This document shows positions 6,903-57,023 of a stretch of DNA of 64,000 bases, piece after piece (positions within the stretch are counted from its first letter, which is position 1; each line of letters begins with the position of its first letter). A program made the translations under genes and the position numbers. The stretch is from Thiocapsa bogorovii (GTDB lineage: Bacteria; Pseudomonadota; Gammaproteobacteria; Chromatiales; Chromatiaceae): assembly GCF_021228795.1 (NCBI RefSeq), contig NZ_CP089309.1, forward strand, positions 1,178,001 through 1,242,000, in the 5' to 3' direction. Under the pieces are notes generated by a model that was given only the letters and a program-made list of their open reading frames with translations, had not been told where the DNA came from and did no database searches.

Positions 6903-9900
6903 GCGCATGCGCCCTCCTCCACCCTGCGCGCAAAGCAGCGATCCAACGCCTCGATCAGCTCGCGCGGCGGGCGCTCGGCGTGCAGGCCCCGGCTCGACGA
7001 CTCGATGCCGCGCAGGAAGAGATAGACGGCGCCGCCGACGTGGCGGTCGTAGTCGTAGTCCGGCAAGCGCGCCTTCAGCAGCCGATGCAGTGCGAAGAGA
7101 TAGAGGACGTACTGCAGCTCGTAGCGCGCGTGCAGGATCTCGGCGCGCATGGCCTCGGGGGTGTAGGCGGCGGCGTCCGGGCCGAGCCAATTGGATTTGT
7201 AGTCGGCCACGTAATAGCGACCTTCGTGCTCGAAGACCAGGTCCATGAAGCCCTTGAACATGCCGTTGACATGGGCGGGTTGGAGCGCCGGACGGGGCTC
7301 GCGGTCGAGGGTATAGGCACAGACCAGGCGGTCGATCTCGCGGGTATCGGCACGGTGTGCGGCGAGCCAGAACTCCATCTCGGGTACGGCGCCCGTCAGG
7401 TCGACGAGACGAAAGGCGGTCGCCGGCAGCGCGCCCATGGCGGGCACCGGCAACCGCGTCGCCAGGGAGGACCCCAGCCAGGTCGTGAGCGGATCGATCC
7501 ACTGGGACCAACCGCGCACCTGACAGCGTCGGGCGATGGTGTCGCGCAGTCGCACCGGATCGGCGGCGGTCTCGGCGAAACCCGGATTGGCAGCCCATTC
7601 GAGTAAATCGTGAAGAAAGGTGCCCGCCTCCGGCCCGCGCGGGAAGGCGTGAATGGAGCCAGCTGCGGGTGCTCGGTCGCTTGCATCCGTGCCCGACATC
7701 GAGGGGGACAGCTCGGTGCCGGGCGCAGCGGCTTGCTCGACCTGCATCTCCCGGAACCGATCCTCCGTCGGCGTCGCGGCCGGTATCTGACCCGCCGCCC
7801 GGGCCGACGTCGCGACGTACGCGGTGTCGTCGCCGGCGACGGTGCGCAGCGCCGAATAGCTGGCGATCCACCAGGGCTCGTCTACGACGGGGACCGAGGT
7901 CCTCGCGGGCCCGAGGCGGCGTGCCGGACCCGCCGGGACGAAGTGCTCTCGGGATGCATCCGGTGAGGCATCGGGTGAAGGTTCGGGTGCCTCGATCACG
8001 GCGATCGACGCACAGTCCCCGCGCAGGTCCTCGAGTGCCTGCGCCAGGCCATCGGGCGCCAGCGCAGCGTCGCCGCCCAGCAGATACCCGAAGGCGCCGC
8101 GCTCAAGATCGGCCAGCGGCGCGAGACCCACCCAAGTGGCATGGCGGGCACGGGTCAGGGCGACATAGAGCTTGCGCAGATCCTCGCCCAGACGCTCGCG
8201 ATCGGCCCGTTTCAGGATCTCGTCGTCGGCGCAGAGGCCGAGCTGCAGCCGGCCCTGCGCGTCGTGCCACTTGAGCGGAAGGTCGTCTCTCTTGGTCTGT
8301 CGATAATCGGCGGCGAAGGGCAGAAAAACCAAGGGATACTCAAGTCCCTTGGATTTGTGGACCGTCACCACCTGCACCAGATCGGCGTCGCTTTCCAGAC
8401 GGATTTGGCGCGCATCGCCATTCGCGCCGCGGTCCGCATCTCGGCACTGCTCGGCGAGATGGCGGATCAGCGCATGCTCGCCGTCGAGCAGGACGCTGGC
8501 CTGTTGCAGCAGCTCGGCAAGATGGAGCAGATCGGTGAGGATGCGCTCCCCTTCGAACCCCGAGCCCGGCCCCGGCATCGACTCGGATGCGAGCAGCCGC
8601 GCGGGGAGGTCGAAGTCGTTGAGCAGGCGACGCAGCATCGGCAGGACCCCTTGCCGGCGCCAGGCGTCGCGATAGGCGCGGAACTGGAGCACGCGCGACT
8701 CCCAGGCGAGCTCGTCGTGATTGAGACGGTCGAGCTCCGGCCAACTCAAGCCGAGCGTGGCGGTGGCGAGCGCGGCGCGCAGCAGGCGCGCGTCGTCGGG
8801 CTCGGCACAGGCGGCCAGCCAGTGTTGCAGCTCGCCGGCCTGCGGGCTTTGGTAGACGGAGTCCCGATCGGAGAGATAGACGCTGCGCACACCGCGTTGC
8901 GCCAGTGCACGGCGGATAATCGCCGCTTCGGCGCACGTGTTGACCAGCACGGCCAGATCAGCAGGGCGCAGGGCCTTGGGCGCGCCATCGCCGACGAAGG
9001 CCGCCTGCCCGGTCTGCCCCAGATTGAGCAGACGCACCATCTCCGAGGCACAGACCTCGGCGATCCGAGTGCGATAGGCGTCCTTGCTCAACGCCTTGCC
9101 GGCCTCGTTGGGCGGCAGCCAGCAGGCGGTGAGCGCCGGCACCGGTTGGCCGTCGACCTGCAGCGCGTCCTTGCGCCCTTGCGCGTCCGCCGTGATAAAG
9201 GGCACCGGATTGTCGGTCCCGGTCCCGGTGTCTGTTTCGGTCTCGGTGCGGAACAGGAACGCGCCGGCTCCGCTCGCTCGGGTCTCGGCCACCTCGAAGC
9301 TGCGATTGGTGGCAGCGACCATCTCGGGCGTGGAGCGGTAGTTTCGCTTCAGGGTGTAGAGACGGCCCGCGAAGTCTCGGCGGGCGGCGAGATAGGTGTA
9401 GATATCCGCGCCGCGGAAGGCATAGATCGCCTGCTTGGGGTCGCCGATGAGGATGAGCGCGGTCGTGGGGTCGTTCGCCGCGACGCGGTAGACGGCATCG
9501 AAGATGCGGTACTGCACCGGGTCGGTGTCCTGAAACTCGTCGATCAGGGCAACCGGGAACTGGCGGCGGATGATCTCGGCCAGGCGCTCGCCGTTGGGTC
9601 CCTGCAGGGCGGCATCGAGCCGGGTCAGCAGGTCGCTGAAGCCCATCTGGGCGCGGCGGGTTTGCTCGGCGGAGAAGCGGTCCGCGACCCAGCGCGCTGC
9701 GTGGCGCAGGAGCGCGGAGCGTGGCGTGGGTAGATCGGCCAGGTCAGCAGGGAGGCAGGCGATGGCCTCAAGTGCGGGATGACCGGGCGGATCACCCGAT
9801 TTCAATGCATCGGCTAGACCCGCGGGCGTAAGACGCTCCCAGCCTTTCCCCAGATCGAGCGACTCGGCGACGTGGTCGGCGGCCCATCCGCGTAGCGCGG

Positions 9901-40148: not shown

Positions 40149-42194
40149 TCACTCAACCAACGCCTTCAGCAGGGCGTCGCGGGCATCCTGGTAAAACTGG
40201 GTATCCACCTTTGTCGCCATGTCATCGGACAGGTCGAACAGCTGGCGCCGGCTGGTGACCGGCATCAGTACGGCCTGCGCGCCCTTCTCGACGGCCAGCT
40301 CGACCAGCGTCACGGCATTGTGAATCGGCTCGATGGACCCGCCCAGGTTGATCTCGCCAATTATGACCAGGCCGCCGCGAAGTGGCTTCTTGAGCAGGCT
40401 GCTGCAAAGTGCGATCAGGGCAGCGACACCGACCTGACTGCCGGTCTTGGCGGCATCGAAGCTCCTGAGCTGGACCGAGAACTCGTGCGCCCTGGGGTCG
40501 CGGTCGCCGACGAGTTGCGCGGCGCGGGCGTAAAGGTTCTGCTGCGCGTAGCGCACCGATTCCTGAAATGCCGATGGTGCGGGCTTGTTCAGGATGCGCA
40601 GCCCACTGCCCGGCCCCTCGTTGACCTCAATGCGGTAGAGACCGGGGTGCTCGTCCATGCCGCCGGGGCTCAGTGTCCAAGCCTGCCCAGGTTCGAGGGG
40701 GTCGGCACCGATGCTGTTCTCGCTCGAAAGCTCCGGCGTCACGACGAACTTCTCGACGCCTTCTTCGCCAAGTAAGTAGCTGAAGTGGGTATTCCGGAAC
40801 TCCGCTGAGCCGATCCGCTTCTGTTGCTCCTTCACCCTTCGGCGGACCTCCAGCGCGAGGCGCACGGCCCATTCCAGATCCTCGTCCGCAACCCGCATCT
40901 CGGCCGAGGGATAGAGCAGCTTCAGCAGGCCGCTCGCGGTCTTGTTGGTAGCGTTGATGTCGCGCCCACTGAGCGCGCCGCCCAAGTGCACCCGGCCTTG
41001 CAGTTGCGGCAACCGGCTCTCCATGCGCAGCCGGCTGAAACACTCGGACAGAAAATCGCTGACCAGCCCGAAGTGATCGGTGAACAGGGTCGGCTGCATC
41101 TTGGGCACGTCCCAGCCCGGCAGGTAGGCGTGGATGCGGTCCATGAAGGCCGTGTCGTCGCGCATCTCCGGCGGCAGCGGACCGAACAGATGACCGATGC
41201 GCTGCTGGTGCTCCACGTCCACCTCAAAGTTGCCGACCAGGACGATGGAGCCGTCGGCCCGAATGCTCTCCTTGCCGCGGCTGAACTCGCCCGACTCCAT
41301 GTAGCCCTTCATGATGTTGACGCCGTCCTTCTGGTCGAAGGAGACGCCCGAGACCTCGTCGAAGCAGACCACGTCGTACTGGCAGACCAAGCCGCGCTGG
41401 CCGTTGGCGTTGTTGACGAACATCTTCGCCACCGTCGCCTTGCCGCCCGAGATCAGGTGGGCGTAGGGCGAGACCTGCTGGAACAGATGGCTCTTACCGG
41501 TGCCACGCGGCCCCAGCTCCACCAGGTTGTAGTTGCGCTCGACGAAGGGGACCATGCGCAGCAGCAGGGCGTCTTTGGCCCGCTCGCTGAACTGGTCAGG
41601 CTCCAGCCCGACGCTGCGCAGCAGGAAGTCTTTCCATTCGGCGGTGGTCAGATCCTCGCGCGCCTTGGCCAGCACCTCCAGCACGTCGCGCTTGGAGAGC
41701 TGGATGGCCCGCAGGGCCTCAACGCCAAAGGGCCGCCCATGGGCCTCCTGAGCGATGGAGGAGTCATAGCTCAGTGTCACCTCGGCATAGAAACCGCCGG
41801 TCAAGAGCCGTTCGTGCTCGCGGACCATCTCCGGGGCGATGCGCACGTCCTTGAGCTGCAGGCTCGGCAGGTTGGCCAGATAGGCGTCGGTCTTGGCGTC
41901 CAGGCGGGCGCTCACCAGGTCGATGAGCTTGACGGTACCCTGCTCGCGGGCGCGGGCCTTGAACAGCTCCTGCTCACCGGCCTTGACCGTGCGCGAGGCG
42001 AGCTGGCGCTGCACGATGTCCAGCCCCTCGTTGATCTCTTCCTCATCGGTCGTTGCGCAATAGCGCCCGAGCAAGAACTCGACCACATAGGTCGGCACCG
42101 GGAACTGGCGGCTGAATTGGCGCACCAGGTCCTTGCGCACGACATAGCCCTCGAAGTGCTCGGCGGCCTTTCGGTCCAGTTCGTCTAGCTGCAT
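40149..42194 (-). CDS. brxL: BREX protein BrxL (Lon-like AAA protein)
   Basis: 681 aa. It has the BrxL N-terminal domain, then an AAA core with LGPRGTGKSHLFQ and VVCFDEVSGVSF (Walker A and B), and a C-terminal Lon-protease-like domain (SQVGVAALIALCSSLLKKPLRGGLVIIGEINLGGSIEPIHN). In type 1 BREX it is the last gene and is needed for phage defence; it assembles into hexamer-type rings on DNA. It starts 4 nt after the pglZ stop. The frame is intact. Confidence 0.95.
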   Translation of the reverse strand: MQLDELDRKAAEHFEGYVVRKDLVRQFSRQFPVPTYVVEFLLGRYCATTDEEEINEGLDIVQRQLASRTVKAGEQELFKARAREQGTVKLIDLVSARLDAKTDAYLANLPSLQLKDVRIAPEMVREHERLLTGGFYAEVTLSYDSSIAQEAHGRPFGVEALRAIQLSKRDVLEVLAKAREDLTTAEWKDFLLRSVGLEPDQFSERAKDALLLRMVPFVERNYNLVELGPRGTGKSHLFQQVSPYAHLISGGKATVAKMFVNNANGQRGLVCQYDVVCFDEVSGVSFDQKDGVNIMKGYMESGEFSRGKESIRADGSIVLVGNFEVDVEHQQRIGHLFGPLPPEMRDDTAFMDRIHAYLPGWDVPKMQPTLFTDHFGLVSDFLSECFSRLRMESRLPQLQGRVHLGGALSGRDINATNKTASGLLKLLYPSAEMRVADEDLEWAVRLALEVRRRVKEQQKRIGSAEFRNTHFSYLLGEEGVEKFVVTPELSSENSIGADPLEPGQAWTLSPGGMDEHPGLYRIEVNEGPGSGLRILNKPAPSAFQESVRYAQQNLYARAAQLVGDRDPRAHEFSVQLRSFDAAKTGSQVGVAALIALCSSLLKKPLRGGLVIIGEINLGGSIEPIHNAVTLVELAVEKGAQAVLMPVTSRRQLFDLSDDMATKVDTQFYQDARDALLKALVE

Positions 42195-42198
42195 CTGC

Positions 42199-44535
42199 TC
42201 AGTCCCCGCCGATTACCGTCGCCACCCGCGCGACCGCCTGGCCGTTGCCGTCCAGGACGACCAGCGAGATGGCCTCGCCTTCCAGTTCATCGTTCTCGAC
42301 CACCAGCGACGCCTTTCCAGCCTTGATCGGCTTGCCGCCGTCGGCCTGGCTTGTCTTCGGGTCGTTCGCCTTCTGCCGTAGGTCCACCGCGTAGCCCGGC
42401 TGCGCGCCATCGAGGACAACGCGGCAGCGCAATCCGGTCCACTTGATCTCCGTGACCGTCACGGAAACCGCGTCGGCGACGCCGGCCGGCAGTGTGACGC
42501 TGACCCTGGGGATGATGCTCTCCTGCAGGCTCAGGCCGCCGTGCCCGTACTCCTGGCCGGCGATGAAGCTGGAAATACCCGACGCCATGGCGACGCGCAC
42601 ATCCGGGCACCAGCTCCAGGTCAAGGTCAGCTCGGTGGGCTTGGCCGTATCGGTCAGGGCCGCGCAGCGACCCCAGCGAGTGGCGGTGAGGAACTTCGCC
42701 AGCTCGGTCTTGGGCATACCGCCCGGCACCAGCAGCCAGCCGTGGTCGGTGACGATGCGGATCTGCTTCCAGCCCGCATCGATCAAGAAACGGATCTGCT
42801 CGACGATCGCATCCAGCATCGACGGCACCTCACGCGCCAGCCGCAGGCCGTGCTCGTGGCCGTAGTGGTCCAGATCACCGAATTCCGTCCAGCCGCGCCC
42901 TGTTGGATCGCCGGTCTCGCTGCCGCCCAGCACCTGCCAGCCCGCGTCCTTGAGCGTCTTGCGCAGCAGGGCGGCGTTGAACGGCTTGTCCTGTGTCCCG
43001 TGGCTTGGGACGAAGTCCTGGTCGGTGCTCCGGCCTTGCGCGACCTGGGCCATGGGCGAGCAGGCGACCTTGCCGGAGGCGGTCACCGACGGTACCGGCG
43101 CCCAGGCCGAATCGATCGTCGCCTCCAGCCCCTCTGCCTGCACAGCCACCGCGAGTTCCTGCGCGACATCGAAGCGCAGCCCGTCGACGAACAGCCAGCA
43201 CCGCCCGCCGGCCTGATAGCCGGCGTCCGGCTCTTTCACCACGCTGGAGCCGGGGTAGCCATCGTTGCGTACCAGATCCTGGAAGTGCCGGTTGGTCACA
43301 TCCAGCCAGCGGACATAGACAGCCTGCAGCGTGGCGCTCACCGCCTCGGTGTCGGCCTTGGTGCGCAGTCCCGCGAGGGCCTGCCGGGCCGCTGCATCCG
43401 CCTGCCAGAACTCGCCCCGGTAGGCGTCGGCCATGTCATCCAGGTGTTGTCCGCCGAACGGCTTCTCCGTCAGCGCGGCCAACCGGGACAGGGGCTCCAG
43501 CGCCTGGGCCAGCGGTGCTTGGCCCATCTCCGCCCACAGCCAACGCCGGCGTTGCCCGTGCTCCTGCTCCAGCGCCTTCAGCCTTGCGATAGCCTCGGTT
43601 TGACTAGCACCCGCAAGCCCAGCCAGTGCCGAGCGGAGCTTGTCCTCAGCCTCCTCGTTGGCCCTGGGGTAACGGCTGAGATCGGTGAACAGGTCCCGGT
43701 GCACAGGGAGCGACGCCAATCGGAGCTGCTCGATCACCTTCGGAAAAGGCCGCCAGCCGCTCTGATACCGTTCCCAAACGGCATCCCACTCCGGGCGCCC
43801 CTCACTGATGCGCTCCGCCGCGACCAGCACGCCGTCGGTCTTCGGGTCGAGCTTCCAGTCCGCCTTGCAGCGGCTGCGAAAGGCATCCCAGCGGGCACCC
43901 TGCCATTCCTCAGCGGTGCCCTCGGGGTTGCTCATCCAGGACAGCAGGTCGCGGATGGGGTCGCTGCTCAACAAGGCGTCGAAGTCCGCCGCCTCCAGAG
44001 GCCGGCCCTTGAGAGCGTCCACCGGTGTGTCGACCAGCACATCGAGCGCCCGGTGCATGGCCTGCTGGGTGGCCTGATCCGCGGACAGGTCGAGGTTTAG
44101 CCCGCCGCGACTGCTTGAGAGGAACGCGTTCAGCGTCCAATCCCGGCCATTGAGCTGGCTCCAGAACAGACCCCGGTATTGCAGCTCGGCCAGCGGCTGC
44201 AACTGCCGCGGGCAGGTCTCGATGGCGCGCAGGTCGGCGCGCGACACACCGGGCAGATAGAGGATCGGCACCGCGCTCGCGGGCCAGTCTGCCTCCTCGA
44301 GGGTGCGCGCCAGCATGCACTTGATCCAGATGGCCGGACCGCGGCGCTCCGCCGGCGCGTGGTCACCGAACACCAGCAACTCCGGGATCATCTCCCGCAG
44401 CCGTTCGTCGACCGCTCGCCACTGCGCCTCATGATCCTTCCAGAGCACGGCGGCGGGCCGCGCCTGCTCGGCGCGGCTGACGTTCGCGGCGCTGCGCAGG
44501 GAGTCGAGCAGACGGTCGAAGACGGTCTCAGTCAT
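42199..44535 (-). CDS. pglZ: BREX protein PglZ (alkaline-phosphatase-like)
   Basis: 778 aa with the PglZ domain in the second half: WLFVDGLRFDVAQELAV (metal-binding Asp), PVPSVTASGKVACSP (nucleophile region), FGDLDHYGHEHGLRLA and IRIVTDHGWLLVPGGMPK, as in the alkaline phosphatase superfamily. PglZ is the defining core protein of all BREX systems. The N-terminal half is helical and diverged. It is intact, followed directly by brxL. The toxin-antitoxin pair yefM-yoeB lies between it and the rest of the operon. Confidence 0.95.
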   Translation of the reverse strand: MTETVFDRLLDSLRSAANVSRAEQARPAAVLWKDHEAQWRAVDERLREMIPELLVFGDHAPAERRGPAIWIKCMLARTLEEADWPASAVPILYLPGVSRADLRAIETCPRQLQPLAELQYRGLFWSQLNGRDWTLNAFLSSSRGGLNLDLSADQATQQAMHRALDVLVDTPVDALKGRPLEAADFDALLSSDPIRDLLSWMSNPEGTAEEWQGARWDAFRSRCKADWKLDPKTDGVLVAAERISEGRPEWDAVWERYQSGWRPFPKVIEQLRLASLPVHRDLFTDLSRYPRANEEAEDKLRSALAGLAGASQTEAIARLKALEQEHGQRRRWLWAEMGQAPLAQALEPLSRLAALTEKPFGGQHLDDMADAYRGEFWQADAAARQALAGLRTKADTEAVSATLQAVYVRWLDVTNRHFQDLVRNDGYPGSSVVKEPDAGYQAGGRCWLFVDGLRFDVAQELAVAVQAEGLEATIDSAWAPVPSVTASGKVACSPMAQVAQGRSTDQDFVPSHGTQDKPFNAALLRKTLKDAGWQVLGGSETGDPTGRGWTEFGDLDHYGHEHGLRLAREVPSMLDAIVEQIRFLIDAGWKQIRIVTDHGWLLVPGGMPKTELAKFLTATRWGRCAALTDTAKPTELTLTWSWCPDVRVAMASGISSFIAGQEYGHGGLSLQESIIPRVSVTLPAGVADAVSVTVTEIKWTGLRCRVVLDGAQPGYAVDLRQKANDPKTSQADGGKPIKAGKASLVVENDELEGEAISLVVLDGNGQAVARVATVIGGD

Positions 44536-44623: not shown

Positions 44624-44884
44624 TCAATAGTGATAATGGCAGGAAATGATGGTGATCTGCTCCGTATCGACGGCGTAGACCAGGCGATTCGCTTGGTCGA
44701 TGCGACGCGACCAGAATCCGCTCAGGTTTTCCCGCAAGGCCTCGGGTTTGCCGATACCTTCGAACGGCGTCCGCAGCACGTCGGCGATGAGCGCGTTGAT
44801 GCGCTTCAGGGTCTTGCGGTCTTGGCTTTGCCAGTAGACGTGGTCTGCCCAGGCCTCTTCGGTCCAAGCGAGCCGTCTAGTCAT
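44624..44884 (-). CDS. yoeB: YoeB-type ribosome-dependent mRNA endonuclease toxin
   Basis: 86 aa from the ATG at 44884, overlapping the antitoxin gene by 8 nt. Family motifs: LAWTEEAWADHVYWQSQDRKTLKRIN, GIGKPEALRENLSGFWSRRID, and the C-terminal RLVYAVDTEQITIISCHYHY with the catalytic Glu, Arg, His and terminal Tyr. YoeB cuts mRNA in the ribosomal A site. The partner YefM gene is directly upstream. Confidence 0.95.
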   Translation of the reverse strand: MTRRLAWTEEAWADHVYWQSQDRKTLKRINALIADVLRTPFEGIGKPEALRENLSGFWSRRIDQANRLVYAVDTEQITIISCHYHY

Positions 44885-45131
44885 GCTGCAACGGATGCTC
44901 GGCGGTCTGTCCCTGGCGGTATTGGGCAATGGAGCGGGCGAGATGCTCGGCGTTGGCCGGTGAGCGAAGCAGGTGGACCGTCTCCATCAGACTATTGAAG
45001 CTGTCGAGGGACATCACGACCGCGTCTTCAGCATCTCGACGGGTGATGACCGTGTAGTCCGCGTCGTCTGCTACGCGATCAAGCACTTGCTTCAGTTGAT
45101 TGCGGGCATCGGAGAAGGTGATGGTTTGCAT
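44877..45131 (-). CDS. yefM: YefM/Phd-type antitoxin
   Basis: 84 aa. N-terminal TFSDARNQLKQVLDRVADDADYTVITRRDAEDAVVMSLDSFNSLMET is the Phd/YefM DNA-binding and dimerisation fold; the C-terminal tail neutralises YoeB. It overlaps yoeB, the usual antitoxin-first order. Probably self-repressing through sites just upstream of 45131. Confidence 0.95.
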   Translation of the reverse strand: MQTITFSDARNQLKQVLDRVADDADYTVITRRDAEDAVVMSLDSFNSLMETVHLLRSPANAEHLARSIAQYRQGQTAEHPLQHD

Positions 45132-45189
45132 GGCGGCCGTCGAACTTGTGCGATATGTCGTACAAGTATGCTGTGCTATCTGGCTTCAG

Positions 45190-45492
45190 TCAATCACGAC
45201 CACGCGGCAAGGGCTCGATCTCGCTGAGTACGTCGGCCATACTTTCCTTGGCAAGGGCAATGTCATAGTCGGCCTGCAGGCGCAGCCACCAGCCTTCCGA
45301 CAGGCCGAAGAAGCGGCACAGACGCAGGTCGGTATCCGCCGTCACCGCACGCTTGCCGTGCACGATCTCGTTGATCCGCCGCGGCGGCACATGCACCGCC
45401 CGAGCCAACGCATACTGCGACAGCGCCAGCGGCTTGAGGAACTCCTCCATCAGCATCTCGCCGGGAGAAACCGGCGCCAGCTCCCGAGTCAT
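45190..45492 (-). CDS. higA: HigA-type antitoxin (XRE family)
   Basis: 100 aa from the ATG at 45492; AGAGGTG at 6-nt spacing decides this over the GTG at 45501. Helix-turn-helix HigA signature: SPGEMLMEEFLKPLALSQYALARAVHVPPRRINEIVHGKRAVTADTDLRLCRFFGLSEGWW. It neutralises HigB and represses the operon. Toxin-first order with higB upstream is normal for higBA. Confidence 0.95.
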   Translation of the reverse strand: MTRELAPVSPGEMLMEEFLKPLALSQYALARAVHVPPRRINEIVHGKRAVTADTDLRLCRFFGLSEGWWLRLQADYDIALAKESMADVLSEIEPLPRGRD

Positions 45493-45504
45493 CTGTTTCA
45501 CCTC

Positions 45505-45783
45505 TCAGTGGTAGTCGACGATTTCGACATCCAGGGCGTCGCCGTCCGAAAAGCGGAAACACAGCCGCCACTGCGCATTGATCCGAACGCTCCACTGTCC
45601 GGCGCGATCACCCTTCAAGGACTCCAGCCGGTTGCCAGGAGGCGCGCGCATGTCGTCGATGACACGCGCCAGATTGAGCTGGACGAGCTTGCGCAACGCC
45701 GCGCGTTCAATATGGGCGAACCGCGCAACGCGCCGTGCCGAGAACAACGCCTCCGTGTCTCGACAGCGGAACGTCTTGATCAT
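45505..45783 (-). CDS. higB: HigB-type toxin (RelE superfamily)
   Basis: 92 aa from the ATG at 45783. Motifs: MIKTFRCRDTEALFSARRVARF, LPGNRLESL-type PPGNRLESLKGDRAGQWSVRINAQWRLCFRF, and the C-terminal DVEIVDYH. HigB is a ribosome-associated mRNA endonuclease. Twelve nucleotides separate it from higA's start. The pair is inserted between the DUF4276 gene and yefM-yoeB. Confidence 0.95.
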   Translation of the reverse strand: MIKTFRCRDTEALFSARRVARFAHIERAALRKLVQLNLARVIDDMRAPPGNRLESLKGDRAGQWSVRINAQWRLCFRFSDGDALDVEIVDYH

Positions 45784-45808
45784 CGCAGAAGCATAACGCG
45801 ATGCGTTA

Positions 45809-46462
45809 CTATACGCCAAGCCCCTCAAGTTTCATTACCCAAGCATCGAAATGTGGACACTGGGCACGCATGCAGTCCAACCCGATGTCCATGGCGATCA
45901 ACGAACCGTGAACCGGTTTCTGGTAGCCCAGCCTGCCCAGGCTCGACTCGATACGTTTGGACGGCGCTGTTTGCGCACCGTCGTTGATGTGTTCCGGGTT
46001 TTGAAAGCCCGTCGCGACTGCGTTGAGCTGCTGCAGCGGACCCGGTTCGTCGAACCAGTTTGCGAACCGTGTCGCGTCCGAGAACAGCAGGCCCTCGAAC
46101 TCATGCACCGACAGGTAAGGAACGAAGTTTCCGCAACCGATGTCACTCGCGAACGCCTGCTCCAGACAATCGACCCGCGAATAGAGCTGTGCGGCCGCAC
46201 AAGCCTGCTTCCCGGGAAAGTCCTTCGGGAGCCGAAAAAGGTCGATCATCGTTGTGACCTTGGCGCCGGCATCGCTCAGGCACTGGCGCAAAACCTGAGA
46301 ACGGACCTTGCCATAGGACACAACACCACCCTTGCCTCCGGCGCTCGTGCGCAGCAGGATCGGATTCAGGAAGACGCCGCGATTCACCAATGGGTCGTAC
46401 AAGAGCTCGCGCACGAAAGTCTCTTCCGTTTGCCCCTCCACCATCACGTGCACGCGCGTCAT
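45809..46462 (-). CDS. DUF4276 protein (TOPRIM-like), partner of the AAA ATPase
   Basis: 217 aa from the ATG at 46462, overlapping the ATPase stop as ATGA. The opening VHVMVEGQTEETFVRELL carries the Glu of a TOPRIM-like fold (EGxTE), and TMIDLFRLPKDFPG and LSVHEFEGLLFSD match DUF4276. DUF4276/DUF4435-type proteins pair with AAA_15/AAA_21 ATPases in defence modules such as PARIS-like systems, where the partner is the effector. Effector nuclease activity here is inference. Location inside the BREX operon supports a defence role. Confidence 0.88.
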   Translation of the reverse strand: MTRVHVMVEGQTEETFVRELLYDPLVNRGVFLNPILLRTSAGGKGGVVSYGKVRSQVLRQCLSDAGAKVTTMIDLFRLPKDFPGKQACAAAQLYSRVDCLEQAFASDIGCGNFVPYLSVHEFEGLLFSDATRFANWFDEPGPLQQLNAVATGFQNPEHINDGAQTAPSKRIESSLGRLGYQKPVHGSLIAMDIGLDCMRAQCPHFDAWVMKLEGLGV

Positions 46463-47553
46463 CGGGTCGGTCTCCCGCCGATGACGTTCTTCTTCCAAAG
46501 CTCGCCAAGGCTGTACTCCTCCAGCCAATCCTGTAAGCCCGATGCATCCAAGCGTTGGAATGTCGACCGGCCTTGATCTCGATCCACGACGATCAAGTCC
46601 TCGGCATCGAGCTCGTTTACCAATTCGACAGACTGGGTAGAGACGATAATCTGGTTCTTCTTGGCTGCCGACTTGAACAGCGATGCCAGGACAGTAATCG
46701 CGTATGGGTGCAGCCCAAGCTCGGGCTCATCAACAAGGATGCTGTCAGGTCGGTTCTGCTCCGGTTGCAAGAGCAGGGTCGCAAGACAGATGAAGCGTAG
46801 GGTACCGTCGGATAAGACATGGGCCTTGAACGGGAAGTCCTGACCACGCTCAACCCATTCCAACTCGATGAACTCCTTGTTCGCGGGGCTTGGCCGTAAG
46901 TAAAAATTGCCAAAGAAAGGCGCCGCCAGTTGGATGGTCCGAACGATGCGGTCGTAATGGGCTCTCTCGGTCTGATACAGGCGGTAGAGATACGCCGCCA
47001 GGTTTCGCGCATCCGGGCGCAGGTAGTCGTTGTCGTTGATCGCGTGGGGCTGTTTGACTCGCGCCTCGTCGCTGGTGTCGTGGAAGTGATAGACCGACCA
47101 GCTCTGCATGGCCGGCAGCACGTATTCATCGATTCCGGTGCGGGTGCCTTCGTTGCACTTGCTCTCGAAATGACCCGCGCCGATCTGACGGGGACCAGAC
47201 ACGTCCCACCAGAAGGCTTCATAGGAGAACATCAATCGGTTGTCGAGCGTGGGCTCCAGCGTCGCCTGGTAGCCATTGTGACCGAAGTACAGCTCAAAGC
47301 GCAGCGACTCGCTGACCTTGCGCCCGAAGTGCAGCAGCGCATCCGGCCCGCCCGCCTTGGCAACATGCCGCTGCAGGTTCCCATCCGTCATCTCGCGGAT
47401 CAGCTTGAAGAAGCCGATCAGGTTCGACTTTCCCGCCCCATTGGCGCCAACCAGAACGTTGAGCGCGCCAAGCTCCAGGTCACATGCCTGGATGGATTTG
47501 TAGCCTTCAAGCACGAGCCGGGTAAGCTGCGTCCGGGCAGTCACTGGTTTCAT
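46459..47553 (-). CDS. AAA_21-type ATPase (RecF/OLD-like) of a defence pair
   Basis: 364 aa. ABC-type ATPase of the RecF/OLD/AAA_21 group: LVLEGYKSIQACDLELGALNVLVGANGAGKSNLI (Walker A GANGAGKS), VLSDGTLRFICLATLLL (signature) and SILVDEPELGLHPYA (Walker B), with an IIVSTQSVELVN switch. The start overlaps the pglX stop (ATGA) and the stop overlaps the DUF4276 gene (ATGA), so three genes are translationally chained. The probable role is sensing an invader and controlling the DUF4276 partner. Confidence 0.9.
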   Translation of the reverse strand: MKPVTARTQLTRLVLEGYKSIQACDLELGALNVLVGANGAGKSNLIGFFKLIREMTDGNLQRHVAKAGGPDALLHFGRKVSESLRFELYFGHNGYQATLEPTLDNRLMFSYEAFWWDVSGPRQIGAGHFESKCNEGTRTGIDEYVLPAMQSWSVYHFHDTSDEARVKQPHAINDNDYLRPDARNLAAYLYRLYQTERAHYDRIVRTIQLAAPFFGNFYLRPSPANKEFIELEWVERGQDFPFKAHVLSDGTLRFICLATLLLQPEQNRPDSILVDEPELGLHPYAITVLASLFKSAAKKNQIIVSTQSVELVNELDAEDLIVVDRDQGRSTFQRLDASGLQDWLEEYSLGELWKKNVIGGRPTR

Positions 47554-48375
47554 GCCGCCGCTCCAGCCTCGGCTGCTTCCCGCGCGGCGCGCTTCTCGGC
47601 CAAGGTCAGGTGATGATCGTTGATACGGTCGCCCTGGAACCGGTGAAACCAGGGGGCGCTCTCGACGTCCTTGCCGCGGTCTTTCTTCCAGTGGATGTTG
47701 GGCTTGGCGCGCAGGATGCCGGCGCCCGACCTGCCGACGTCGCCGGCGAGCAGGAAGGGGCGGATGTTCAGGCGCACGCCGTCGTTGAGGTCCGGCTCCC
47801 AGCCGATGGGCTGCGCCTCGATGGGCTTCCAGCGCACGAAGATGTCGAGCGGGGCCTCGCCCTCCAGGATGGCCTCAAGCCGGGTCTTGAGGGCCTTGGC
47901 GGCGGCCAGGCGCTCGTCGGCGCCTTGCGCTCCGTCGGCGGCGGCGCGCTCCTGCATCCGAATCCAGTCGCCGAGGTAGGTGTAGATCAGCCGCTCCAGG
48001 TTGGCGCGGTCGAGCTTGTGGTAGTTGACCAGCGCCGCGAAGCCGTCCTTGAGGCCGTCCCAGATGTGCCAGATGAAGGGGCGGTGACGGAACAGCTTGC
48101 AGTGCTGCTCGAAGAAGGCGTCCCGCAACCAGACATCCAGGCCCTTGCCCTTGGCGCCAGACTCGGTCAGAAGCTTGGTCAGGGTGCCGGCGGTCCAGTC
48201 GTCACCGTAGGCCGCTTCCAGCAGGCGGAACAGGCGCTCGTGGGCGGCGGGCTCGCCACGGATGGCGGGCAAGCAGCAGATGCCGTCGTCGTCGCTGAAG
48301 GCGTCGAGCTTGCCGGCCTCGGCGACCAGGGCGCGGGACTCGTCCGACAGCTCCAGCTGTGCGCCCGGGGCCGGA

Positions 48376-48478
48376 ACTGTAGCCAGGCCATCTTGGCCTG
48401 GTGAGTCGGGGCTGGGAGTGTTGAGTATGAATCCAGGGCTGGAAGCCCTGGCTACAGTGGAGGCTCTGGCTACAGTGG
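48376..48478. repeat. REP-like palindromes, left of the transposase
   Basis: Two palindromic units with a shared CTGTAGCCAGG/CCTGGCTACAG edge: one with core AGGCCATCTTGGCCT near 48386, one with AGGGCTGGAAGCCCT near 48436, plus partial copies of GGCTACAGTGG. They match the units right of the transposase and are read through in the pglX frame. Confidence 0.85.
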
Positions 48479-48482
48479 CGGC

Positions 48483-49052
48483 TTGGCGCCAGGGCCAGTC
48501 CGGAATGCCGGCTTTGTCGGGGTTGTGCCAGACGTAGCGGATCTGAAAGTCGTATTCCTTTTCGTTGCGGATGATGTGGTTGTAGGCGTCTTCCTGCCAG
48601 AAGGTGCCGGTGCGGTTCAGGTGTTTGTTGATGGCATTGGCGGTGAAGGATTTCCAGCTGTGGATGATCTTGGACAGGTCATGGCCGGGCAGCGGTTCGA
48701 CAATGACATGGACGTGGTTGGGCATGACGCACCAGGCATGCAGTCGGTAGCGCTGGCCGTCGAAGTGCTTGAGGGCGTTGGCGAAGATCTCGGCGCATTC
48801 GGGCTTGGCGAGGTGGCAGTCGCCATGGCGGGCGTCCAGATAGGTCTCGATCCGTTCCCGGTATTGGTTCGTGATTTGTCTGCGTGCGGCATCGGTGGAT
48901 TGGCAGCCGTCGCGTTCTGCCACCCGCGCTTGGGCGTCGCGTACCGCGGCCCAGGCTTGGAGCTTGGTCTTGGGGATGGAGTCGGCGAGACGGAAAACGA
49001 TGTGGTAAACGGCGTTCTCGCAGGTCCAATGGGGCAGGTTTTCGCCGTGGGT
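48483..49052 (-). mobile_element. REP-associated tyrosine transposase (RAYT) domain
   Basis: About 190 codons of Y1/HUH transposase within the pglX frame. It has NLPHWTCENAVYHIVFRLADSIP at the start, RIETYLDARHGDC, the HUH motif in VMPNHVHVIVEPLPGH (residues ~446-460 of the composite frame), SWKSFTANAINKHL, FWQEDAYNHIIRNEKEYDFQIRYVWHNPDKAG with the candidate catalytic Tyr at ~493. RAYTs mobilise REP palindromes through single-strand cleavage. All key residues appear present, so the transposase part may still be active, expressed from the pglX start. Confidence 0.9.
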
Positions 49053-49093
49053 TATTTTGAGCGTGCTTTCGTCTAGGCCTTGTGCTGTCGCCG

Positions 49094-49252
49094 GTACTGT
49101 AGCCAGGGCTGTAGCCAGGCCATCTTGGCCTGGGAAATCAGGGCTGGAAGCCCTGGCTACAGTTGATCCAGGGCTAGAAGCCCTGGCTACAGTAGAAGCG
49201 CTGGCTACAGTGGAAGCGCTGGCTACGGTGGAAGCGCTGGGTGCAGTTGGAG
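49094..49252. repeat. REP-like palindromes, right of the transposase
   Basis: At least four units with the same TGTAGCCAGG / CCTGGCTACAG edges, including cores GGGCTGGAAGCCC and GGGCTAGAAGCCC, followed by a short array of GCGCTGGCTACAGTGGAA. In the pglX frame they encode the repeated Ala-Ser-Thr-Val/Ala-Arg-Ala-Ser-Ser-Pro runs. Confidence 0.85.
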
Positions 49253-50110
49253 GGCGGACGAAGCGGAGGTATTCGAGGGCGACGCCGGGGATTGCGGCCT
49301 TTCGGCGCAGCTCATCCTCGGTCTCGGCGGTGCGCAGATCGTCCTCGCTCAAGCGCCGGGTGGCCCACCAGGCGCCGAGACTGTTGTCCAGCAGGAAGGC
49401 GACCATGTAGGGCTCGGTGAAGAGCTGGGTGACGGCGGGCAGCTCGTCGGCGCCGATCTTGACCTCGGAGGCGTTGACCTGGTCCTTCCGCTTGGTCTGC
49501 CAGAACTGATAGACCCAGCCCAGGCTGTCGGATGCCTGGAAGGTGTCCGGGTGCAGCGCGGCCAGCCGGTTCTCCAAGGCGCGCTGGTGCTCCGGGGCGA
49601 GCTTGAGGGCCAGCACCGGGCTATCGGGTCGGAAGATCTGCGGCAGCATGCGCGAGGCATAGCGCCCGGCCAGCTCCCAGCCGTCCGCGGCGCCCTCGTC
49701 ATGGGCCAGCTCGTTGCATTCGTCCAGGGTCAGCGGCACGCCGTCAGGGTGGATCAGCAGACCGTTCTCGGCCAGGAAGCGCGCGAAGAGCATGCGGTGC
49801 CAGTGCTCGTAGGCGGCCTCCTGCACCAGCTTGTCGATGGCCTGATGTCCATCCGCTTGTCGCTGATCCCCGAGCTGCCGTCCGGGGGCGCGCAGCCGTC
49901 GGCGCAGGGCGCGCTCGGCGTCGGTCAGATGCCTAGGGAGGTCCGCGTCGCCGACACCCAGGTGCATCAGGGCAGCACGGGCGGCCCCTTCTGCGATGTC
50001 GCGGGCGGCGACGATGGCGTCTTCCAGTTGCTTGCGCAGGGTTTTGGCGAGGGCTTCCATCTTGTTTGCTGTCCTAGGGTTTGGTTCCGTCGGCTCTCCT
50101 GATACGCGAA

Positions 50111-51819: not shown

Positions 51820-54556
51820 TTAAATCATCACTGGCCCCTCGCTGAGCTTGTCGCGGATGCGCTGCTCGGCCTCCTTCAGCCAGGCGGCAAGGTCGGTCTC
51901 ATCGGTGAGTGTTCGGCGCGGCAGGTCCACGCGCTGCACCTTGGGCTCCAGCAGCTTCGCGGCCTCCAGGCGGGCCTGCTCGAAGCGGCCCTTGAGCGCT
52001 TGGGTGCGGTCGGCCCATTGGGACAGCGCGCAGCGTTCCAGCTCGTCGAGGATGCGCTCCGGTGTAGACACGTCGACCGAGACGGTCTCGTTCAGGCCAT
52101 GCTTGGCGAGGATTGATTGGCACTGCTCGGCCGTGAGCGACTGCCAGTTGCTGTCCTGCTCCAGCGCGGCCAACTCGGCGTCGTAAGTGGTCCGATATGC
52201 CGCGACGTGGTGGTTGAGGCTGGTGCGCAGCAGGTCCACGGTCTTGTCCAACAGGGCCTGGACCGGGTCGTGGCCGGCGAGCAACGCCCGTTGTTTCTGG
52301 ATCTCCGCGGCCTCGCCTTGCAGCTCCTTGCAGGGTCCGAGGTCCTTGGCGTGGTCGAGCAGGTCCTGAAGCAGCGTCCAGACGGGCCAGCGTTTGGCGA
52401 TCTGCTGGCCGGTGGTCTGCCAATCCGCGCTGCCCTGGATCAAGGCATCGCGCTGGCTGAACAATTCGGCGAGGAGCGCGTTGCCGGCCAGGGCTTGCAG
52501 GTCGTCGATGCCTTTCTGATCGGGAAGCGCGGGCTTGGGGGCCTCGCCGCCGGCCTTTGCCACCAGCTCCCGCAGCACGCGCAGCAGCTCCGGCGCCCGC
52601 TCGATCTCGGTGCCGGGCTGACAGGTGACGCCGGCGGCCTGGAAGACCTTGCGGATCTGGATCTTCTGCACCGGGCTGATGGTGACGGTCTCGGGCTTGA
52701 AGGTGCTTTGGGTGATCTGGCGGCGCTCCAGCCCCTTGGCATCGACGGGTTTGGACAGGTTGTTCAGCGCGAGCACATGGCCGCTGGCGATCAGGGCATA
52801 GAGGGCGCCGTCGACGGCGTCTTGAGGCCAGCCGTAGGGCGGCGCCTTGAAGTGGTCGCGAACGTCGCTGCCCTTCTTGCCGGCGCCGAGTTGCTTGAGG
52901 ATGGCGGCGCAGACCGGGTGCTGATCGGTATCCGCGCTGTGCTTGATGGGCTGCAGGGGCTGGGTCTCGCCCTTGCGCGCGCGCTCGATGACCTTGTCCC
53001 AGCCGAGCTGATCGGCGGTGTCGAAGTCGCCGTACAAACGCACGATGGAGGCGCCGCCCGCGGCCTGGAGCTTGTCGGTGAGCTCGCTGCCATCGACGGT
53101 CTGCCCCCCGCCCTGGTAGACCTGGGCGCCGCGGACCACGGCCTTGACGATCTGGGCGATGCGCCGGGCCGCGTCGTTGCGGCGCGTCTCCATCGCGGAG
53201 CGGGCATCCTGGCCCTCGGGGGTGGCCGGAATGCCGCGGGTCTCCAGCGTGAGCTGGGCGGCCTTGTGCTCGATGATGGCGGAGCGCAGCTCATTGCGGC
53301 TCTGGGCCGGCAGGAAGACGAAGATCGACGAGCTGGTGGGGCCGGCGTTGCGGGCATCGCCCTTGATCTCGGCCTCGGAGCTGCTCCAGTCGTCGCGGAA
53401 CCAGGCATAGATCTGCTTGTCGGCGTCCGCCGGCAGGATGTCGTCGTAGCAAGGGGTGAGGGTGCGGGCCTCTTTGGTCTGCCCCTGGGTCAGGTGCACG
53501 CCCTTGAGCGCATCCCGGTAGGCGGCCTTGAACAGGTCGATGCGCTCCATCTCCAGGCGCTGGGTGTTGGCGGACAGCTCGGAGACCTGCTTGCGGTACT
53601 CGTCGTGCCAGGCGCTGCTCTCGGCGGTCTGCAGGCGGTACTCGGTGCCCGCCGGGGTGGCGATGGCCATGACCAGCCCGTCCTTGTCGTGCAGCGCGTC
53701 GAGCAGGGCCGGGATGCGTTTGCGCAGCGCACTGGAGCCGCCGGCGAGGTCCGTGACCAAGAGGTCCGCCAGGCTGTCCTCGGTGGCGCGCAGGCCGATG
53801 TCCGCCATCGGGTCGGTGGGCAATTTGCCGATCAAATAGACGAGCTTGAGCAGGCTGGCCTTGAGCCGAGCGTCATCGTCACCGGCGGCGAGCTTGCCGA
53901 TGCGGTCGTAGACCTCGCGCGACAGCAGCCCGGTCTGAAGCAGGTCGGTGCTGAGCTGGTCGTAGATGAAGTCGCCGGACACGACTTGGCCCAGCGGTTG
54001 CTCGGCCGTGGCGCAGGCGGCCTCGTGGACGATGCGCAGCTGGTTGCGCAGCTGCGAGATGGTGCCGGACTCGTCGAGCTTGTGCAGGACCTTCTCCCAG
54101 AACCGCCGGCGCACCGGCAGCAGCGGGTAGTCCGCGACCATGATCTGCTCGTCGTCGGTGGTGTGCTCGAGCTTGGTGCCGCGCAGGTGGCGTGAGACCT
54201 CGCCGAGGTTGTCGGTGAGCGCCTTCTGGATGGCGGGCACGGCGCTCTGCTGCTTCTGCAGGATGATCTTTCGGATGACGGCCTCGACGTCGGTGTCCGA
54301 GAGCTGCACCGGCACCGTGAACCGGCCCTTGATCTTTTGCAACGAGGGGGTGCCGGACATGGCGGTCTGGCCGGTGCCCACGAAAAGTAGACGGCCGCCG
54401 AAGTGCTTGCTGCAGGACTCGACCACCTCCTGAATGCTGTAGGCGCGGTCGCCGCTGTCGCCGATGAACTGCTGCACCTCGTCGAGGACGATGAGGGTGA
54501 GTGGAAAGACGTCTTCGTTGGTCAGCGCATCCTTGACGGCGCGGATCATCTCGTCG
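51820..54556 (-). pseudogene. brxC: brxC, 3' portion, separated by IS1380
   Basis: About 910 codons of BrxC downstream of the insertion: LTLIVLDEVQQFIGDSGDRAYSIQEVV (Walker B), LLFVGTGQTAMSGTP and LQKIKGRFTVPVQLSDTDVEAVIRKIIL, then a long helical region to the C terminus. Removing the IS and one TTAG copy joins it in frame to the 5' portion (reading VQDVSNDEMIRAV), giving about 1154 aa, normal for BrxC. An internal ATG at 54549 could give a fragment without Walker A. BrxC is the large AAA+ core ATPase of BREX. Confidence 0.93.
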
Positions 54557-54560
54557 TTAG

Positions 54561-56295
54561 CCCGAATATTTCATAAAAAAGGGCGACTCTCGTTCAACCC
54601 ATTGATAAAATGGCTGTTCCGCCAAGAACGCTTCGGAAGAAGCTAAACGAGGTCGCCCATGCCCGAGTCTACCCCGGAACAGCTGCGTTTTCCCCCGGTC
54701 GCCGGTTTCACGGTCCGCGGCGACTTCGACGGCGGCGCCATGTCGTCTGACTTTGGCCCCATGATTCTGCGCGGGGTTGATCGGCAGATCGGCCTGACCG
54801 AGCGGTTGAGCGCAGCGATCGATGATTGGCGCCATCCGTCCTACACCACCCATCCGATGCGTGAGCTGATCGCGCAACGGGTCTACCAGATCGCCTGTGC
54901 TTACGAAGACGGCAACGACGCCAATGCGCTGCGCCGTGATGCGCTGTTCAAGCTGGGGCTGGAGCGCAAGCCGCTGGATGCGACGACGGACCTGGCCAGC
55001 GGGCCGACCTTCTCGCGTTTGGAGAATGGGGTCGGCGCGCGCGACCTCTACCGCATGGCGCAGGCCTTCGTCGAGGCCTTCATCGCCAGCTACCCGAAGG
55101 CGCCGCAGGTGATCGTGCTCGATATGGACCACTCCGAAGACGCCACCCATGGCCAGCAGGAGTTCGCGTTCTACAATCATCACTACGGCAACCATTGCTA
55201 CTTGCCGCTGTTTCTCTTCGAGGGCCTCTCGGGGAAGTTCATCACCGCGGTGCTGCGTCCCGGCAAGCGCCCCACCGGCGCCGAGAACGCGATGATCCTC
55301 AAGCGCGTGCTCAAGCGGCTGCGGGCCGCGTGGCCACGCACACGCATCATCCTGCGCGGCGACGGACACTTCTCCAACCCCGAGTTGATGGCCTTGGCGA
55401 TGGCCGATCCGTTGACGGATTTCATCTTCGGCCTGGCGGGTAACCGGGCTCTCACGCCACGGGCCGAGCCGTTCTTGGCCGACGCCCGCAAGCTCCATGC
55501 GCTGCGCATCGAGAACGCCCGGCGCGCCGACGCCGACGTACCCGAGCGGACCCGCACCTACCACGAGGTTGACTACCGTGCCGGTTCCTGGCCCGGCGCG
55601 TGTCGGACCATCCTCAAAGCCGAGGTGACGGCGCGCGGCGACAACCTCCGCTTCGTCGTCACCTCCTTGGACTTGCCCAGTCCCGAGTGCGTCTACCGCG
55701 ATCTGTACTGCGCGCGCGGCCAGGACGAGAACTTCATCAAAATGATCAAGAACGATCTGGCCAGCGATCGCACTTCCGACAGCACCTTCTTGGCCAATCA
55801 GATGCGCTTGTTCTTCTCCTGCGCCGCTTACGTCTTGCACCAAACGCTGCGCACCGAGGTCCTCGTCGGCACGGAACTGGCCAACGCCCAGCCTGCCACC
55901 GTGATCATCAAACTGTTCAAGCTCGCCGTGCGCGTGGTGCAGTACAAAGACCGCGTGCGCCTGCACCTGCCCTCGAGCTGTCCGGTCAAGACGCTGTTGC
56001 AGCAGGTCACCGAGAGGCTCTTCAACGCGCAGCCCCGGGCGGCGCCCGCCTAGACGCACATACATCCCCGCACGGGGATTTCAGCACGCGCACGACGACT
56101 ATGCCCACCTCGGGCAGGGCATCGTACGCCTGCGCGGCGACAAAACTACTCGTGCCCCGTTGATCAAGCCCGTTGCCGCTCGGTATTTCCACCATTCAAC
56201 CCCCGCGGCGTCCCGGTCATCGCCCTCGGTGACGCCCAGCGCCGCGCAAATCCGCGAGGCCAGTGTCGGCTGTGTCGGTTTATGAAACATCCGGG
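54561..56295 (+). mobile_element. IS1380-family insertion sequence, copy 2 (inside brxC)
   Basis: 1735 bp, with the same ends as copy 1 (left CCCGAATATTTCATAAA, right end reading inward CCCGGATGTTTCATAAA) and a 4-bp duplication TTAG at 54557-54560 and 56296-56299. It is opposite in orientation to copy 1, about 33 kb apart. One extra C and at least one substitution distinguish it from copy 1. Confidence 0.97.
54659..56053 (+). CDS. IS1380-family transposase, 464-aa form
   Basis: Identical to the copy-1 transposase through residue ~457 except for Val to Ala in LKAEVTARGD. An extra C near 56034 (CCCC against CCC) ends the protein at RAAPA. The DDE-type core (LDMDHSED, RGDGHF) is complete. Its length is within the usual range for IS1380 transposases, so this may be the functional form and the extended copy-1 protein the variant. 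Confidence 0.93.
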   Translation: MPESTPEQLRFPPVAGFTVRGDFDGGAMSSDFGPMILRGVDRQIGLTERLSAAIDDWRHPSYTTHPMRELIAQRVYQIACAYEDGNDANALRRDALFKLGLERKPLDATTDLASGPTFSRLENGVGARDLYRMAQAFVEAFIASYPKAPQVIVLDMDHSEDATHGQQEFAFYNHHYGNHCYLPLFLFEGLSGKFITAVLRPGKRPTGAENAMILKRVLKRLRAAWPRTRIILRGDGHFSNPELMALAMADPLTDFIFGLAGNRALTPRAEPFLADARKLHALRIENARRADADVPERTRTYHEVDYRAGSWPGACRTILKAEVTARGDNLRFVVTSLDLPSPECVYRDLYCARGQDENFIKMIKNDLASDRTSDSTFLANQMRLFFSCAAYVLHQTLRTEVLVGTELANAQPATVIIKLFKLAVRVVQYKDRVRLHLPSSCPVKTLLQQVTERLFNAQPRAAPA

Positions 56296-57023
56296 TTAGA
56301 GACGTCCTGGACCTCGGGGTACTGGGCGATGAGGCGGTCGCCGACGTGTAGGACGTCCGGCGCCAGCTCGGGCTTGGCCGCCAACAGGGCGGCGTGCAGG
56401 TCGTCAGAGACAAAAAGCTCCGGCAGCTCCCGCTCCAAGCTCGTGCCATTCTTCGCAAGGGTCGCCTCGACCGCTTCGAGCATTCCCTCCCGCTTGAGCC
56501 AGAGGACTAGGCGCGCCTGGTTGTATTTCTCCGGCAGGCCGGCGGACTTGAAGACGATGCCGAGCAGGGCGAGGCGGACATTGTTGCCGGCGCCGGAGCC
56601 CAGCTTGCCGGAGGCGGCGTGCAGGCCGCCGTAGCGCTTGCTCTGGTTGTTCAGCTCCCGGAGGTGGTCCTTGATGTCGGTCGGCAGTCTGGCGATGCTG
56701 CGCGCCGTGGCGCCATCGTCGAAGACGCCGTCCACCCACAGGGCGCGCAGCATCTTGGCCAGGTGCGACTTGCCGCTGCCGTAGAAGCCGCTGATCCAGA
56801 CGCCGGGCTGCTCGGGGGCTTGCCCGAGATTGCCGAGATAGATCTCCAGGATCTTCTGCAGGCCCTTGGCGTATTCGCCGTCGCAGACGAAGGTGTCCAG
56901 TTCGTAGCGGAGGATCTCCAGCGCGGCCTGGGAGCGATCCTCCGAGACCTCGGCGACGCCGTTGTTGATCAGCCGATTGGCGAGGGGGTCCTTGCTGTAG
57001 ATGTCGCGATTGTGCATGGTCAT
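56296..57023 (-). pseudogene. brxC: brxC, 5' portion, separated by IS1380
   Basis: About 242 codons from the ATG at 57023 (MTMHNRDIYSKDP). It contains the BrxC N-terminal LINNGVAEVSEDRSQAALEILRYELDTFVCDGEYAKGL and Walker A in VWISGFYGSGKSHLAK (residues ~76-90). The frame runs into the IS and stops after six foreign codons. It follows brxB after 9 nt. Confidence 0.93.

Follow-up and report, generated by a model that had tools for sequence, protein, structure and literature searches.

An in-frame transposase in the BREX gene pglX of Thiocapsa bogorovii and the probable guest-domain habit of its relatives

A bacteriophage exclusion (BREX) locus lies in a 64,000-nucleotide stretch of the Thiocapsa bogorovii genome (contig NZ_CP089309.1, positions 1,178,001 to 1,242,000), which is referred to here as the window. 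Its pglX gene carries a complete transposase of the type associated with repetitive extragenic palindromes (REPs), a REP-associated tyrosine transposase (RAYT), in its own reading frame and is missing the methylase core. We consider it likely that pglX first took up the RAYT together with the flanking REPs, keeping the frame, in a variable loop ahead of the methylase core and that the core was lost later, and that the same RAYT clade occurs as a guest domain in many genes. Taken alone, the window gene would be a curiosity: its best reading is that a pglX already bearing a RAYT suffered a secondary deletion, in a BREX locus that is itself broken. Together with its relatives, it suggests that this RAYT clade may be a mobile element living as a guest domain of host proteins. 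Genomes and loci are cited by G and L numbers.

The gene occupies minus-strand frame 50060..47550 (window coordinates), which is open for 836 codons from an ATG start to a stop and encodes, in order, the PglX N terminus, translated GTAG REPs, a complete HUH/Y1 RAYT, further REPs and the PglX C terminus. Among the NCBIfam families, BREX-1 PglX (NF033452) matched the frame in two end stretches only (132 bits versus a cut-off of 500), and the RAYT family NF047646 matched residues 417-519. When the gene was aligned with the RAYT-less PglX of a relative (L046), window positions 50063-49254 corresponded to residues 1-273 and positions 48362-47601 to residues 878-1131, both at 67% identity. Residues 274-877 of L046 have no counterpart, so that about 604 residues, including motif I and TNVPY, are gone; this is the deleted span as defined against an intact homolog. 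The frame, the family matches and the alignment bear out the single PglX–RAYT–PglX chimera reported in a preliminary description of this DNA. The absence of the S-adenosylmethionine-binding and NPPY regions, also reported there, holds as well: a motif search of the window frame found neither motif I nor TNVPY/TNPPY, and both are present in 6/6 other RAYT-bearing PglX. No other PglX exceeded the family cut-off in the single-contig genome, where the sole match besides the two halves scored 24.4 bits. Relative to BREX-1 PglX, the window copy shares both ends and the locus context but lacks the methylase core and carries the RAYT. The parts of the gene are listed below in the direction of translation.

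49254..50060, minus strand: pglX 5' part, residues 1-269, from the PglX N-terminal region to YLRFV, just 5' of methylase motif I (67% identity to L046 residues 1-273; NF033452 at residues 138-239)
49065..49253, minus strand: 5' linker of translated REPs (VARASSPG.../...PGQDGLAT)
49168..49190, minus strand: GTAG REP, one mismatch to GTAGCCAGGGCTTCCAGCCCTGG
49138..49160, minus strand: GTAG REP, one mismatch to GTAGCCAGGGCTTCCAGCCCTGG
49111..49133, plus strand: GTAG REP GTAGCCAGGCCATCTTGGCCTGG
48489..49064, minus strand: RAYT (HUH/Y1 transposase) domain, residues 333-524 (RAYT profile; Pfam Y1_Tnp; AlphaFold2 model; fold match to 4er8)
48708..48716, minus strand: HUH motif, HVH (invariant columns H121/H123 of alignment A2)
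48534..48536, minus strand: candidate catalytic tyrosine, in RYVWHNP (invariant column Y181 of A2; aligned with 4er8)
48363..48488, minus strand: 3' linker of translated REPs, probable site of a REP–REP deletion
48433..48455, minus strand: GTAG REP GTAGCCAGGGCTTCCAGCCCTGG
48379..48401, plus strand: GTAG REP GTAGCCAGGCCATCTTGGCCTGG
47550..48362, minus strand: pglX 3' part, the PglX C-terminal region with the stop codon (67% identity to L046 residues 878-1131)

The central domain was recognized by Pfam Y1_Tnp with 40.1 bits (gathering cut-off 23), and the IS200/IS605 family NF033573 gave 29.6 bits, below its cut-off of 55. At an E-value of 0.01, the only sequence relative in the Protein Data Bank was 4er8 (TnpA_REP). 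An AlphaFold2 model of the RAYT alone, calculated from a 30-row alignment, had a mean predicted local distance difference test score of 89.8, and its best Foldseek match was again 4er8 (E 1.7e-08, TM-scores 0.52/0.62, root mean square deviation 6.7). The histidines of the HUH motif and the tyrosine are present, both in invariant alignment columns and in the alignment with 4er8; the tyrosine is presumably catalytic, as in TnpA_REP. GTAG REPs flank the RAYT on both sides and are translated as VARASSPG...PGQDGLAT. GTAGCCAGGGCTTCCAGCCCTGG occurs three times in the window at up to one mismatch, with a chance expectation of 0.00, and GTAGCCAGGCCATCTTGGCCTGG has two exact copies. No genome-wide REP population was found: at up to three mismatches, the two REPs had only 3 and 4 matches in 5.65 Mb, all but two of them in the window gene (3/3 of one REP and 2/4 of the other). 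In addition, ATG, GTG and TTG are absent from 30 codons 5' to 12 codons 3' of the RAYT start. With no start codon nearby, the window RAYT is probably produced only in fused form.

The same junction was sought in other genomes. The RAYT search covered 194 genomes of the source's family, with up to 17 candidates scored per genome; 29 genomes had a match at 1e-20, and a hand count gave 32 matches at 1e-50 or better. Ten of the 32 lie in frame in a recognizable host gene, the other 22 not being established as embedded. The hosts are PglX in G000 (the window), G135, G127, G154, G065 and G168, HsdR in G000 and G119, an adenosine-deaminase-like gene in G185, and a DUF1156 methylase in G179, in which the frame stops soon after the RAYT. 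The five other PglX of the family (L088-L092) have the RAYT with YLRFV/YLRFI on its 5' side and, on its 3' side, the stretch (in most, PAAGTF) that runs into motif I. Both motif I and TNVPY lie 3' of the insert; L090 leaves its contig further on. A seventh RAYT-bearing PglX, in a metagenome-assembled genome (MAG) labelled Candidatus Kuenenia (L103), has the insert at the same place and both methylase motifs. Next to these six pglX genes brxC was found as one unbroken alignment over the part available. The pre-motif-I insertion site is thus common to the window gene and its counterparts in six other genomes. The preliminary description had also proposed that the RAYT replaced the PglX core. This has to be rejected, since six other genomes keep both methylase motifs 3' of an insert at the same site. 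For the same reason, RAYT insertion and core loss were two events.

The closest relative of the window gene, L089, points to how the core was lost. Its RAYT is 70% identical to that of the window, and its PglX N half is 80% identical and sister to it. L089 has translated REPs after the RAYT and again just before GMELSDESR, in near-identical DNA, and the second junction of the window gene, before ELSDESR, coincides with the second of these places. Because L089 has a REP at this junction, the window core was probably lost after RAYT insertion by REP–REP recombination, a route that we infer from this one relative. In the window genome, the recombining REPs would have been two direct copies in one frame, separated by about 600 codons, the first following the RAYT and the second following the specificity region. 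Their recombination would have removed the core and the specificity region and left the frame open, in a BREX locus with a split brxC.

The L088 PglX (frame 3686-8056) has additional in-frame REP-like inserts near its C-terminal region. At the pre-motif-I site, two RAYT-less PglX (L051 and L052) carry a linker of another repeat-like kind (PSPTPLDGEG...), as though the loop were a hot spot. The second in-frame RAYT of the source genome lies in HsdR (L014:4839-8531), between the N-terminal and helicase parts of a 1231-residue frame. In HsdM nearby (L014:13158-14999), about three in-frame tandem repeats (KCEIAMEERERGLSSPQDQTGGRNAPAPL) directly follow DPCCGSGG.

Embedding was also assessed in a scan of public genomes with 12 RAYT queries, in which the best 80 of 426 confirmed loci were analysed. 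Pfam was run on the 40 longest frames of the 80 and pairwise tests on some frames, which together covered 42 of the loci. In at least 34 of the 80, the RAYT is in frame and has host sequence at both its ends. In 22 of these the host was recognized by Pfam, NCBIfam or the PglX tree: PglX (L103), Eco57I type (L174), SNF2 (L179), CarB (L169, L168), ValRS (L111, L106, L118), MetH (L164, L144, L148, L138, L124), HsdR (L163), AlaRS (L128), GH38 (L107), DinG type (L115, L117), IspG (L130, L153), XseA (L162) and Sua5 (L109). Homology between independent species identified the remaining 12: Eco57I type (L123, L182, L142), DUF1156 (L131, L133, L136, L155), deaminase (L152), FabA-like (L120, L116, L114) and ValRS (L137, through the valS genome search). 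Six further loci (L104, L141, L165, L122, L178 and L181) have host sequence on one side, the other being untested, masked or at a contig end; L181 was counted here for its weak 3' host side. No host was recognized for L175 and L151. According to the submitters' titles, the 34 come from Verrucomicrobiota, Planctomycetota, Bacteroidota, Chloroflexota, Ignavibacteriota and Pseudomonadota. Judged from these frames, embedding extends beyond defence genes to housekeeping genes.

Two candidates were not counted. The RAYT of L096 (Lamprocystis) was first taken by resemblance as embedded in brxC, and brxC queries matched neither L096 nor L171; the frame of 677 in L095 resembled a chance frame. In a sample of the class, only 1/369 genomes had a match at 1e-50, and this was the source genome itself. 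The plasmid collection gave no RAYT match at 1e-20, and among 63 stretches of viral contigs two loci (L185 and L186) were confirmed as RAYT relatives.

The positions of the inserts were compared with known structures and with other copies of the host genes. In L111, the insert is flanked by residues equivalent to 205 and 209 of ValRS 1gax. In L109 it lies between the two Sua5 domains, at a domain junction, and in L153 it follows the IspG part that matches 3noy to residue 255, with the C-terminal part continuing behind. The same site recurs, by eye, in MetH, ValRS, IspG, DinG-type, CarB, HsdR, DUF1156 and FabA-like genes. Four Eco57I-type methylases have the insert shortly before motif I, as in PglX, with motif I itself in view for L182 and L142. 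In adenine methylases, the loop ahead of motif I appears to be a recurrent and tolerant site of insertion. Copies of two hosts were searched for as matches over the cut-off in genomes of unstated completeness. The insert-bearing frame was the valS match over the cut-off in 4/5 genomes (L111, L106, L118 and L137), weaker matches falling under it; in the fifth genome (L181) no match exceeded the cut-off and just parts were found, on two contigs. In 2/2 genomes the sole IspG carries the insert. Three MetH copies of Verrucomicrobiota (L144, L148, L138) have short linkers with no recognizable REPs and are perhaps long-resident.

These observations are best explained by the following mechanism. The RAYT and its flanking REPs would insert where a gene tolerates it, in permissive loops or at the junctions of domains; in needed genes only in-frame insertions would survive. 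The REPs would then be translated as linkers, and the RAYT would fold as a guest domain made mainly within the host protein. Retaining its HUH nuclease, the guest would persist by riding a gene that the cell keeps. On balance, we lean slightly towards a stronger statement, namely that the clade may be a distinct mobile element, made of REP–RAYT–REP units that sit in frame in coding genes, often at recurrent loops of housekeeping or defence genes. Such units would be expressed through the host gene, have an active HUH nuclease and escape loss by crude deletion, which would kill the host gene. They would resemble inteins without splicing, occur in several phyla and use their REPs both as transposition signals and as linkers.

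Conservation was examined in 44 embedded copies, the 34 described above and the 10 of the source's family. All of them (44/44) retain the HUH motif and the tyrosine, and no decay was seen. By the Nei–Gojobori method (NG86), the ratio of nonsynonymous to synonymous substitution (dN/dS) in the RAYT part was 0.16-0.32 over 10 pairs of five PglX copies, with 0.24-0.56 in the host halves. For the RAYT part, one HsdR pair had a ratio of 0.08, as did one Eco57I pair that was near saturation; dS was saturated in the pairs from MetH and ValRS. A tree of 103 RAYTs was calculated by a quick method, with branch support from the Shimodaira–Hasegawa-like approximate likelihood ratio test (SH-aLRT) only. Embedded copies (44 rows) and those not shown to be embedded (50 rows) are separated by 14 changes, at least five of them forced, with nine uncertain rows excluded. 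Embedding is clustered on this tree, since shuffling gave a mean of 31 changes and 0/500 shuffles were as low.

Several points weigh against the proposed reading. The score of the window RAYT with NF047646 (73.6 bits) is under the cut-off of 80. Both REPs and the core were seen together in L089 and not in the window genome. The HUH motif and the tyrosine do not distinguish the embedded copies, because other copies keep both equally well (45/47, two being cut short). A start codon near the RAYT start is lacking in only 11/44 embedded copies (and in 5/38 not shown embedded), so that independent translation of the RAYT is possible in most of them. Embedded cases were sought among long open frames, and out-of-frame insertions in dispensable genes would therefore be missed. 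Many loci are on MAG contigs, in which REP repeats can mislead assembly. In several MetH copies the linkers have no recognizable REPs, so the REP route is perhaps not general. Finally, translation, nuclease activity and mobility of the embedded RAYTs are what we infer from their sequences.

The locus around the window gene bears on the alternatives. A split brxC, pglZ and brxL accompany pglX and provide the BREX context.

40149..42194, minus strand: brxL (TIGR02653, 665.8 bits)
42199..44535, minus strand: pglZ, BREX-1 type B (NF033450, 900.9 bits)
51820..54549, minus strand: brxC 3' part, an open frame (NF033441 positions 237-1172)
54561..56295, plus strand: insertion sequence of 1,735 bases in brxC, with a DDE_Tnp_1_4 transposase open reading frame at 54659-56053 (PF13701, 502 bits) and TTAG on both sides (ends read by eye)
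56280..57023, minus strand: brxC 5' part, an open frame running a few codons into the insertion sequence

The window BREX locus is thus damaged twice, brxC being split by an insertion sequence and pglX being without its methylase core. The interval between pglX and pglZ (44624-47553) holds an AAA_21 ATPase (46459-47553), a DUF4276 protein (45809-46528) and small genes resembling toxin-antitoxin pairs.

Such a locus, dead or dying, invites the explanation that the BREX gene was already dead when the RAYT inserted and that luck alone kept the frame open. Indeed, the deletion in the window may be recent and neutral. As a full account, however, decay is unlikely. It is already contradicted by the relatives, whose PglX retain both methylase motifs and hold a RAYT in frame at this site, and by RAYTs in genes for which the search revealed no further copy above the cut-off. 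Moreover, in the linkers of 42 frames, stops occur only in the other two frames (0 in the host frame versus 101 and 130), although these frames were chosen for being open and include L096 and L175, for which no host was shown.

The preliminary description had left open an accident or a domestication, in which the fusion places a single-strand nuclease under BREX control. Domestication specific to BREX would suit the six other PglX with a RAYT at one site, and the descent of RAYT and PglX appears, from two trees, to have been partly shared. On the RAYT tree, two changes account for the PglX copies, and strongly supported branches force both. The window RAYT groups with L089-L092 and L103 in a set of six (support 86, not starred). 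Nevertheless, the RAYT of L088 stands apart on another branch. In a tree of 13 PglX N halves, on which L103 is a long branch, RAYT-bearing and RAYT-free copies are interspersed, which takes 5 changes, of which at least 4 are forced, and RAYT presence is no more clustered than in shuffles (428/500 as low). From these patterns, the RAYT at the PglX site was often gained and lost, or exchanged. As a general idea, control by BREX likewise finds no support, given that the same clade occurs in housekeeping and many other unrelated genes and the window BREX is broken, and we regard it as improbable; accident fits the deletion only.

Insertion into needed enzymes would be most bearable if the insert were removed after transcription or translation, as an intron, an intein or by ribosome bypass, and RAYT-less and RAYT-bearing PglX do share the site. 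Inteins with homing endonucleases place a nuclease in frame in conserved, often essential genes, at repeated sites and with scattered presence. The embedded RAYTs resemble them in all these respects but have linkers of translated REPs and no sign of splicing. Pfam, at E-values up to 1e-5 or 1e-4, matched no Hint splicing domain in the 40 frames, and the Sua5 insert lies at a domain junction. An open host frame would be needless for excision from RNA, though open frames were also the search criterion. We give removal of the insert little credence. An assembly artefact is least probable of all, very much so, even with repetitive REPs and many loci in MAGs, since the same sites recur with the frame kept in independent assemblies and L088 lies in a 6.8 Mb contig; the junctions of the window gene are unlikely to be artefacts because the source genome is one contig of 5,649,927 bases, 99.99% complete.

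The reading of an in-frame guest RAYT can be placed beside known systems. By motif alone (NHVH, WQ and YxxxNP), the window RAYT is nearest to subclass 2.4 (RAYT group 4) of PMC6006769, where RAYTs of this subclass have REPs within their own gene with the frame unbroken. GTAG REPs on both sides and a fold nearest to 4er8 are further likenesses to RAYT/TnpA_REP. Unlike those, the window RAYT lies inside the frame of another protein, has no nearby start codon and has REPs almost confined to pglX. GTAG REPs in frame in coding genes, including replication, repair and tRNA synthetase genes, are described in PMC3733652. The inserts described there are REPs alone, many of 20-30 residues, whereas the genes considered here contain the entire transposase. 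The palindromic elements of Rickettsia, cited in the same paper, are likewise palindromic repeats in frame in functional proteins, without a transposase. Intragenic REPs have thus been published, and searches of the open-licence PubMed Central literature found no report of a whole RAYT embedded in frame; word searches of PMC2817692 and PMC8049555 likewise turned up nothing on point.

RAYTs are taken to be genes that stand alone and spread extragenic REPs. If the guest-domain reading is true, their persistence would be explained by dependence on a gene that the cell keeps, such as those for ValRS, AlaRS, CarB, IspG, MetH and defence methylases. 'Extragenic' would then be no defining trait, and a transposase would be tolerated as a domain in essential enzymes. 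The long proteins dismissed as 'gene fusions or annotation errors' in PMC6006769 may be real. The guest-domain lifestyle could be tested directly in cultured hosts.

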